Part shown: positions 39,096-41,876 of the stretch, one piece after another
How the letters are laid out: each line of letters starts with the position of its first letter
Numbering within the stretch: the stretch's first letter is position 1
Assembly: GCA_009377585.1 (NCBI GenBank)
Contig: WHTS01000025.1
Span: 1 to 64,000 of the forward strand
From: Betaproteobacteria bacterium
GTDB lineage: Bacteria > Pseudomonadota > Gammaproteobacteria > Burkholderiales > WYBJ01
Direction of reading: 5' to 3'
Length of the DNA: 64,000 bases
Position numbers and translations under genes: made by a program
The notes under the pieces: model-generated
The model's input: the letters and a program-made list of their open reading frames with translations, nothing else
Told to the model about the DNA's origin: nothing
Databases searched by the model: none

Positions 39096-39165
39096 AGCAC
39101 GCGGGCCGATGACGCGCGAGTAGCGTGGCAGGCATGTGGGCAAGCAGAGGCGACGCCGGCAAGAG

Positions 39166-39225
39166 GAGAAGGCAGTGGCGGAGAAGGCAGTGGCGGAGAA
39201 GGCAGTGGCGGAGAAGGCAGTGGCG
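39166..39225 (+). repeat. Four perfect 15-nt tandem repeats containing RBS and GTG
   Basis: GAGAAGGCAGTGGCG is repeated four times without mismatch (39166-39180, 39181-39195, 39196-39210, 39211-39225). In the selenoprotein frame each unit reads EKAVA. Each unit also carries a GGAGAAG-type ribosome-binding site seven bases before an in-frame GTG. Copy-number change keeps the frame. Confidence 0.8.
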
Positions 39226-40950
39226 GTTCGATACGAAGCATTGTGGCCGCGCAGTCCGCGGCAAGTGGGCGTGAAGCCGTTGGCGCGGCGACTCGATACG
39301 CTCGAAGGCAAGACGGTCGCGCAATTGTGGGACTACGTGTTTCGCGGCGATGAAGTGTTTCCGTTGCTCGAAGAAGGGCTCAAGCAGCGCTTCCCCGGCG
39401 TGCGGTTCGTGAGCTGGAAGGAGTTCGGCAGCACGCACGGCAGCGACGAGCGTGAGGTGCTGGCCTCGCTGCCGCGCAAGATCAAGGCGCTCGGGGTCGA
39501 CGCCGTCATCTCCGGAATGGGTTGTTGAGGGAGCTGCACGCCCGCCGTGTTGCGGGCATCGGCCGTCGGCGAAGAAGCCGGCATTCCCTCCTCGACGCTC
39601 GTGTGCGAGGGATTTCTCGGACTGGCTGCGGCCTCGTCGGTCGGGCTGGGCATGCCCAACCTGCCGGTTGCGCTGGTTCCCGGGCATACCGGTGTACAGA
39701 GCGACGAGGTGCTCCGGCGCAATATCCTCGGCGTCACGCTCGATCGCGTGGTCGAGAACCTCATGCGTCCGCCTTCCGAGCCGCTCATCGACGACGAGCC
39801 GGGCGCGCGCGATGTCGTCTGCCGCGGCAGCTTCGAGGAGATCAACGAGTATTTCGAAGCCAACGACCTGAGCGACGGCCTGCCGATCGTGCCGCCGACG
39901 CGCGACAAGGTCGAGGCGTTCCTGCGCTGCACCGATCGCGATCCCGACGAAGTCCTCGGCATTCTCTTGCCCGACAACCGCGCCGCCACGGTATGGAGCG
40001 TCGCGGTGAACGGCGTCATGGCCGGCTGCCGTCCCGAGTACATGCCGGTGCTGATTGCGCTGATCGAGGCGATGGCCGACCCGTACTACGGGGTGGAACA
40101 TAGCGGCAACACGCCGGGAGGGGAGACGCTCATCATCCTGAACGGCCCGATCATCAAGGAGCTCGGCTTCAACTACACGCAAGGCGTCATGCGCGACGGC
40201 TTTCGCGCCAACACCTCGGTCGGACGCTTCTGGCGGCTGTACCTGCGCAACGTCGCGGGCTTCCTGCCGCACAAGAACGACAAGGCAACCTTCGGCAACA
40301 CCTGGCGCGTGGTGGTGGCGGAAAACGAGGACGTGCTGGCGAAGATCGGCTGGGAGCCGAACAGCGCCGAGTTCGGCTATCCGGCCGGCTCGAACACCGT
40401 CACGATCGCGCGCTACACCGGCGGCAATCACATCTCGTCGGTGTCGGGCAGCACGCCCGAGCGGCTGATGCCCTACATCGACGATGCGATGGTGCGGCAA
40501 TACTCGTGGCAGCTCATGTTCACCGTCGGCCAGGGCATGGGCACGCTGCGCCCGCTGGTGCTGCTCTCGCCCATCATCGCCGAGACCATCGCCTCGTGGG
40601 GATGGAGCAAGCGCGATCTCAAGCAGCACCTGTACGACCACGCGCGTTTGAGCGCCGACCAGTTCTCGCGCATCCTGCGCGATTGGACGCTCAAGCCCAC
40701 CTGGGACTTGCAGCAGGAGCACATGCTGGGGCGTATCCCCAAGGTGTTCCACGAGTCCGATGATCCGAACCGGCTGGTGCCGCTGGTGTGGGAGCCCGAC
40801 GACTACATGATCGCGGTCACCGGCGATCTCATGCGCAACAGCATCTACATCTTCGCCCACAACGGCGTGCTGGGTTATCCGACCGGCAAGGAGATCCGCC
40901 TGCCGAAGAACTGGAACGCGCTGCTCGACAAAGCGAGGCGCAAGGCATGA
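39175..40950 (+). CDS. UGSC-family selenoprotein, N-terminal UGSC domain plus long C-terminal domain
   Basis: One frame runs from the GTG starts at 39175-39220 to TGA 40950, interrupted only by TGA at 39526-39528. Around that codon the protein reads AVISGMGC-U-GSCTPAVLRASA, the UGSC motif of a predicted redox (seleno)protein family, in which the TGA encodes selenocysteine or is replaced by Cys. Family similarity continues on both sides (LARRLDTLEGKTVAQLWDY before; AGIPSSTLVCEGFLG after), and a SECIS-like hairpin follows. The C-terminal ~430 residues (FEANDLSDGLPIVPPTRDKVEAF onward) contain GNTPGGETLIILNGP and GRFWRLYLRNVAGFLP and are of unknown function. The total is about 591 residues with Sec near 118. 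The true start is uncertain; GTG 39175 follows AGGAG, and 39136 is a further upstream GTG. The stop overlaps the reductase gene (ATGA). Confidence 0.85.
39526..39564 (+). promoter_or_regulatory. Predicted bacterial SECIS element
   Basis: UGA (39526-39528) is followed by 11 nt, then a GC-rich stem GCCCGC (39540-39545), loop CGUGUU (39546-39551) and GCGGGC (39552-39557). A lower helix can form between GCUG (39533-39536) and CGGC (39560-39563) across a small internal loop. The hairpin size (about 38 nt), the 11-nt spacing from UGA to the upper stem-loop and GU in the apical loop agree with the known SelB-binding element of E. coli fdhF. Confidence 0.7.
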
Positions 40951-41876
40951 CTTCGCGGCGACGGCGCGATGTGTGGGACCTGGTCGTGATCGGCGGCGGC
41001 ATCGCGGGCCTCACCGCAGCCTGGCACGGCATGCGGCGCGGTCTTGCGACGGCACTGTTCGAGCCGGGGCCGGGCTACGGCGGGCAGGTGGCGACCGTGA
41101 ACGCGCTCGACGACTGGCCGGCGACCGGACCGGTCTCGGGTGTGGAGCTCGCGGCTACGCTCGCCAACGCGCTGGACGGGGAAGTGGTCGAAGCGATGCA
41201 CGAATCCGTCGCGGCGGTCCGGGTCGAAGGCGAGCACCTGCGGGTGGAATCGGCCACGCACAGCGTGCGCAGCCGCCGCGTCATCGCCGCCAGCGGCGCG
41301 GCGCTCAAGTCGCTCGGCGTTACCGGCGAGGGAGCGCTGCGCGGCAAGGGCGTCTCACAATGCGCGCATTGCGACGGCGGCTTCTTCCGCAACCAGGATG
41401 TGGTCGTGGTCGGCGGCGGCGATGCGGCGCTGCAGGAGGCGCTGGTGCTCGCCGGGGTGTGCCGCTCGGTCACCATCGTCGCGCGCTCGCGGCTCAAGGC
41501 ACGTGCCGCGTACACCGAGCGTGCGGCGAGCAAGACCAATGTCGTGTTCGTGTGGGAGAGCGAGGTCACTGCAGTGCTCGGCGAAGCCGGCGTGACCGGC
41601 GTGCGCCTGCGCAACGTGAAGACGGGCGCGCAGACCGATTATCCGTGCAGCGGGGTGTTTCCGTTCATCGGCGTGGCAGCCGAGACCTCGTATCTGCCCT
41701 TGCAGGTGAAGCGGAATGCAGCCGGCCTCGTCGTCACGGATGGCGAGATGCGTTCTTCATTGCCGGGTCTGTACGCGATCGGTGCGCTGCGAGCAGGTTA
41801 TGGCGGCGACCTGGTGAGCGCCGCGGGGGAGGCGGCGCTCGCCGTCGCGAACGTTACGCGCGAGCTTTCGCTGTGA
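40947..41876 (+). CDS. Thioredoxin reductase-like FAD/NAD(P) oxidoreductase
   Basis: 309 residues of the low-molecular-weight thioredoxin-reductase fold. The FAD motif is VVIGGGIAG (13-21), the NAD(P) motif VVVGGGDAALQEA (from 153) and the redox-active pair CAHC (139-142) is intact; a second FAD contact is LYAIGALRAGYGGDLVSAAGEAA. ATG 40947 overlaps the selenoprotein stop codon, so translation is coupled. It is the obvious electron donor to the UGSC protein. The partner and the NADPH/NADH preference are inferred, not shown. Confidence 0.87.
   Translation: MTSRRRRDVWDLVVIGGGIAGLTAAWHGMRRGLATALFEPGPGYGGQVATVNALDDWPATGPVSGVELAATLANALDGEVVEAMHESVAAVRVEGEHLRVESATHSVRSRRVIAASGAALKSLGVTGEGALRGKGVSQCAHCDGGFFRNQDVVVVGGGDAALQEALVLAGVCRSVTIVARSRLKARAAYTERAASKTNVVFVWESEVTAVLGEAGVTGVRLRNVKTGAQTDYPCSGVFPFIGVAAETSYLPLQVKRNAAGLVVTDGEMRSSLPGLYAIGALRAGYGGDLVSAAGEAALAVANVTRELSL

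Follow-up and report, generated by a model that had tools for sequence, protein, structure and literature searches.

A probable UGSC-family selenoprotein with a second conserved domain, encoded in a betaproteobacterial genome rich in UGSC genes

In glycine, sarcosine and betaine reductase, substrate-specific GrdB paralogues receive electrons via thioredoxin reductase. UGSC proteins, whose U-x-x-C motif is aligned with that of GrdB by a profile comparison given below, have been a predicted selenoprotein family since at least 2008 (PMC2398784), are included in later reviews (PMC9312934, PMC13188914), and are among the commonest predicted selenoproteins of water metagenomes (PMC2398784). The protein described here is a member of this known family, and a fusion of UGSC to a conserved domain of unknown function was already published in 2008 (PMC2398784). 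Like that UGSC/Unknown_1 fusion of the Global Ocean Sampling study, with which it was compared by description only, our protein joins a UGSC domain to a conserved unknown domain. It has in common with the UGSC family (PF24696; NF041046) the UGSC domain itself, with selenocysteine (Sec) predicted in U-G-S-C, and differs in being divergent by its NF041046 score, fused to a second domain, and one of 24 copies in its genome.

The features of the locus within the window (the whole stretch of DNA analysed, 64,000 nucleotides) are as follows.

39165..39225, + strand: four 15-bp direct repeats at the gene start, each with GGAG and GTG (from the sequence).
39175..40950, + strand: probable UGSC/second-domain fusion selenoprotein gene (in-frame read-through; homologues continuous across the same span).
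39241..39726, + strand: UGSC domain, PF24696 (genome search with PF24696, 83 bits; hmmscan of the joined protein, 86.5 bits).
39526..39528, + strand: TGA codon very probably read as selenocysteine, in a C-U-G-S-C motif (conserved TGA; Cys homologues).
39540..39557, + strand: SECIS hairpin GCCCGC-CGUGUU-GCGGGC (fold, conservation, synonymous-codon resampling, compensatory pairs in a paralogous subfamily).
39859..40947, + strand: second domain, without a Pfam or NCBIfam family, with a near-invariant Cys in N-x-V-M-A-G-C-x-P (alignment, profile scans).
40947..41876, + strand: thioredoxin-reductase-like FAD protein with a CAHCDG active site (Pyr_redox_2, TIGR01292 below cut-off; directly downstream in orthologous loci).

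The open reading frames flanking TGA 39526-39528 (39136..39528 upstream, 39547..40950 downstream) share one frame and join in one protein, which reads ...SGMGC-U-GSCTPAVLRAS... through the TGA and terminates at TGA 40948-40950. The preliminary description, made from the sequence alone, had given this reading as GMGC-U-GSCTPAVLRA and had seen one conserved domain on both sides of the TGA; both are found here, the joined protein matching PF24696 across the TGA with 86.5 bits by hmmscan, above the gathering cut-off of 25. Its assignment to UGSC holds as well, with the refinement that the protein scores 38.3 bits on the NCBIfam equivalog NF041046, under the curated cut-off of 125, and so represents a divergent subfamily. 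The start is ambiguous among four GTGs (39175, 39190, 39205 and 39220), one in each of four copies of the 15-bp unit GGAGAAGGCAGTGGC; as every copy carries both GGAG and GTG, they offer four equivalent start sites. The start at 39175 given earlier is therefore one of four candidates, but the orthologues suggest a start near 39220, the last of them.

The source genome (G000; 242 contigs, 99.4% complete, 4.85% contamination estimated) contains 24 UGSC domains above the PF24696 cut-off, 23 of which have exactly one in-frame TGA, the lone Cys copy (C44:7810-8313) using the codon TGC. Eight related genomes contain a further 114 domains above this cut-off (6 to 24 per genome), every one with exactly one TGA. 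In pairwise comparisons with five orthologues, changes cluster at the third position of codons, before the TGA as well as after it; against orthologue L048, changes at positions 1/2/3 number 4/1/18 upstream and 24/9/116 downstream. This bias, together with the retention of the TGA in 114/114 and 23/24 domains, confirms at the level of sequence comparison that the TGA lies in frame inside one gene and not by chance. In the homologues this residue is either Sec or Cys, and no case turned up in which a stop here separated two genes.

Homologues in plasmid records of four haloarchaea reading GDCGSC (Natrinema, Halorientalis, Halalkalicoccus and Haloterrigena), of two Variovorax and of Neorhizobium have Cys at the Sec site, so that the in-frame UGA aligns with Cys as it does in selenoprotein genes. 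The lone Cys copy of the source genome (L087) reads C-G-T-S, the motif's second Cys being gone too. On plasmid p2-T1 of Acidovorax sp. T1 (NZ_CP021650.1, L128), an IncP conjugative plasmid, there is a UGSC gene with an in-frame TGA that, like the window gene, continues from the UGSC domain into the second domain; it is 32% identical, and this Sec-type gene is mostly unannotated, entered only as a short hypothetical protein. The record annotates a fragment of about 96 residues, ending at the TGA region, which shows how such genes go missed.

The genome has the means to decode UGA as Sec. The search proposed in the preliminary description, for selA, selB, selC (tRNA-Sec) and selD, recovered all four genes, the set expected of a bacterium that makes selenoproteins. 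The tRNA-Sec scores 75 bits and is confirmed by ARAGORN (anticodon TCA); selA (559.5 bits) and selB (442.8 bits) adjoin each other on the same contig as the tRNA-Sec. The selD gene (412.5 bits; G000:C2:81361-82290, L018) itself has one in-frame TGA in the context GGG-U-GCK, so selenophosphate synthetase is a probable selenoprotein too. A flavoprotein relative of the window's thioredoxin-reductase-like protein sits between selB and tRNA-Sec (L020).

Three elements absent from the preliminary description came out of the analysis: a SECIS hairpin, a second domain and the expansion to 24 copies. The hairpin begins 11 nt past the TGA, the bacterial SECIS position. Its loop is kept in 23 of 24 distinct sequences of the window gene's subfamily, at a fixed distance from the TGA, and all but one sequence of this subfamily have in the hairpin the Leu codon TTG, an uncommon choice (8.6% of Leu codons, with eight window genes as the reference). 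A second subfamily has the hairpin GUCGUGGA-GUG-UCCACGAC at nearly the same place after the TGA, and in nearly all its sequences Ser is encoded here by the seldom-used AGT (2.2% of Ser codons). Here 96% of cells are paired, versus 15-48% in slid controls, and at four pairs both bases have changed; one of these is a switch between G-C and C-G, seen in 9 of 23 sequences.

Synonymous-codon resampling weakens the hairpin in 49 of 62 homologues at p<=0.05 (median z -2.4), the 62 sequences being related and the 49 therefore not independent tests. The other 13 of the 62 lie above p 0.05, and L097, L088, L098 and L059 have no hairpin better than random. All four loci keep the in-frame TGA, yet the segment tested past it shows no clear hairpin. 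The signal emerges only when codons are taken into account or sequences are compared; folded against dinucleotide shuffles, the 59 nt of the window itself are unremarkable (z -0.43), and an Rfam scan of the window returned no RNA family. Position, synonymous-site and covariation tests agree in placing a SECIS hairpin directly downstream of the UGA.

Every computational test set beforehand came out in favour of the selenoprotein interpretation, and we consider it very likely that TGA 39526-39528 encodes selenocysteine. The other accounts of this codon are far less probable. A true stop, giving a 117-130-residue protein and a separate 467-residue protein from GTG 39547, would suit the availability of that GTG and the outcome of standard gene calling, which, as the preliminary description foresaw, would break the gene into these two pieces; the Acidovorax record, with only its fragment of about 96 residues annotated, looks the same. 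Yet this GTG falls within the SECIS loop, the TGA lies inside the conserved UGSC domain, it is kept as TGA in every above-cut-off domain of the eight relatives, the Cys homologues read straight through, and the codons past the TGA are under synonymous constraint, so we regard a true stop as highly improbable. The same low standing applies to a TGA read as Trp or Cys, through another genetic code or leaky read-through, which would equally leave the frame open on both sides; against it, TGA also terminates the same gene at 40948, there are a dedicated tRNA-Sec, selA and selB and a hairpin at the SECIS position, and the genome's own Cys homologue uses TGC. Least probable of all is a sequencing error or decaying pseudogene. 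An assembly in 242 contigs with an estimated 4.85% contamination might invite that explanation, but the same TGA recurs in independent assemblies and on an isolate's plasmid, with third-position-biased changes on both sides of it, and the relatives with the same TGA refute it.

Read as a selenocysteine codon, the TGA would yield one selenoprotein of roughly 575-590 residues, the ribosome inserting Sec at UGA 39526 under the direction of the downstream SECIS hairpin, SelB and tRNA-Sec. The second domain, of about 380 residues, has no match in Pfam or NCBIfam scans. The Cys of its N-x-V-M-A-G-C-x-P motif is kept in 80 of 84 aligned sequences from bacteria and haloarchaea, and the domain is also found as a separate gene adjoining UGSC genes. 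This conservation and the gene context make it probable that the second domain either binds substrate or contributes to the active site.

The flavoprotein gene shares 4 nt with the end of the selenoprotein gene, including its stop, and the same flavoprotein lies directly downstream in orthologous loci (L034-L038, L040, L041, L044, L046-L049, L052). More distant homologous loci of Neorhizobium, Variovorax SRS16 and Haloterrigena have a flavoprotein relative with a CxxCDG motif, and that of V. boronicumulans has a related flavoprotein without CxxCDG; in Haloterrigena, which is of the Cys type, the order is the same, with UGSC gene, second-domain gene and flavoprotein. The recoding signature, the machinery and this conserved gene neighbour can all be read directly from the DNA. 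The flavoprotein is a probable electron donor.

AlphaFold2 models the protein with a pLDDT of 91.5 overall and 91.7 for the UGSC domain, in which beta and alpha elements alternate and the Sec stands just ahead of a helix (103-116), after a strand (92-98). In the PDB the UGSC domain model matches proteins of flavodoxin-like and Rossmann-like type, at low TM-scores; its top 50 matches contain no thioredoxin. The UGSC fold is thus predicted to be a flavodoxin-like/Rossmann alpha/beta fold and not thioredoxin-like, a prediction at odds with the thioredoxin-like one put forward in 2008 (PMC2398784). As queries in structure searches, neither the whole model nor the UGSC domain found a match close enough to assign a function, and a sequence search of solved structures gave no convincing match. 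The hydantoin/aspartate-glutamate racemase superfamily offers a weak sequence match (2eq5, E 0.4) and is among the top structure matches of the UGSC domain model, but with TM-scores below 0.4.

A possible link to GrdB comes from profile comparison. The UGSC and GrdB-family profiles align with an hhalign probability of 88% and a score of 46.5, over only about 68 columns but with the U-x-x-C motifs of UGSC and GrdB (PF07355) aligned; no score above 18.8 arose in 60 column shuffles, and reversed or unrelated profiles scored 12-16. The window protein differs from GrdB in that Pfam scans of the joined protein (P0001) and of A1 gave no match to PF07355. No GrdE-type subunit (PF09338) was matched in the genome, by a search that also matched in no control genome. 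The source genome's own GrdB-family protein (L101), from an open reading frame at G000:C3:149660-150019 on the minus strand, reads VLLSPV-U-PNCTC across a TGA, giving U-P-N-C at the motif, and is probably a GrdB-like selenoprotein.

In the mechanism we propose, a helix of the flavodoxin-like/Rossmann domain would begin with the U-x-x-C motif, whose Sec would probably cycle between the selenol form and a selenenylsulfide bond to the Cys that follows. Electrons from NAD(P)H, passed on by the overlapping FAD protein, would probably regenerate the selenol, and the second domain with its conserved Cys would provide substrate binding or part of the active site. If GrdB, with its separate subunits for the reduction of glycine, sarcosine and betaine, is taken as the model, the UGSC paralogues might be reductases that each act on a substrate of their own; many of them are encoded beside tripartite-transporter receptors and genes of CoA or organic-acid catabolism. 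This substrate-specific role we put forward tentatively, at somewhat below even chance. Equally conjectural is the wider proposal that UGSC, the second domain and the thioredoxin-reductase-like flavoprotein may form a GrdB-related selenium-dependent reductase system, with 14-24 Sec-UGSC copies per genome in some betaproteobacteria, each for another substrate and many with their own transporter receptor.

The alternative to this role casts the Sec protein as a thiol or peroxide reductase of stress defence, with paralogues that are backups instead of substrate-specific catabolic enzymes. It is consistent with the UxxC motif and the thioredoxin-reductase-like partner, and with the marine selenoprotein families, of which the majority either are homologous to thiol oxidoreductases or adopt a Trx-like fold (PMC2398784). 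However, the paralogues are old and divergent, and the predicted fold is not thioredoxin-like. Tripartite-transporter receptors also occur in 12 of 18 source-genome regions with UGSC or second-domain copies, versus 2 in 94 kb elsewhere, a small background sample, and CoA transferases, a CoA ester lyase, PEP-mutase-like proteins, an amidase and LysR regulators are encoded near UGSC copies in several genomes. Because of these neighbours, which are indirect evidence, we prefer catabolic, substrate-specific reductases and judge stress defence unlikely, while giving it far more weight than any of the non-selenocysteine readings of the TGA. The 24 copies, the flavoprotein neighbour, the haloarchaeal Cys versions and the possible GrdB link together provide a testable idea of UGSC function.

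The expansion itself appears old. In a tree of 70 domains the source genome's copies are interspersed with those of other genera, which indicates their age, and four Sec/Cys changes are required. In a phylum sample of 398 genomes including the source, with at most eight candidates scored per genome, only four further genomes had a UGSC domain. Counting 23 UGSC genes, SelD and one GrdB-like gene, there are at least 25 probable Sec genes in the source genome, which is no record, since 57 and 63 genes have been published for the largest selenoproteomes (PMC13188914). In the literature examined, selenoprotein-rich organisms are mostly anaerobes (PMC5029168, PMC13188914), so such a number in a betaproteobacterium would be unexpected if its life is aerobic. 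The literature searched, which excluded the selenoprotein-neighbourhood paper of Haft and Tolstoy (2025) that may describe part of these findings, yielded no account of the 24 copies (23 with TGA; 114 in eight relatives), of the flavodoxin-like/Rossmann UGSC fold and GrdB profile link, or of a thioredoxin-reductase-like gene adjoining the module in alphaproteobacteria, betaproteobacteria and one haloarchaeon. One UGSC fusion comes from a metagenome-assembled genome titled Bordetella parapertussis (L042); its UGSC domain is near-identical to those of related environmental betaproteobacterial genomes, and the species label is probably wrong.
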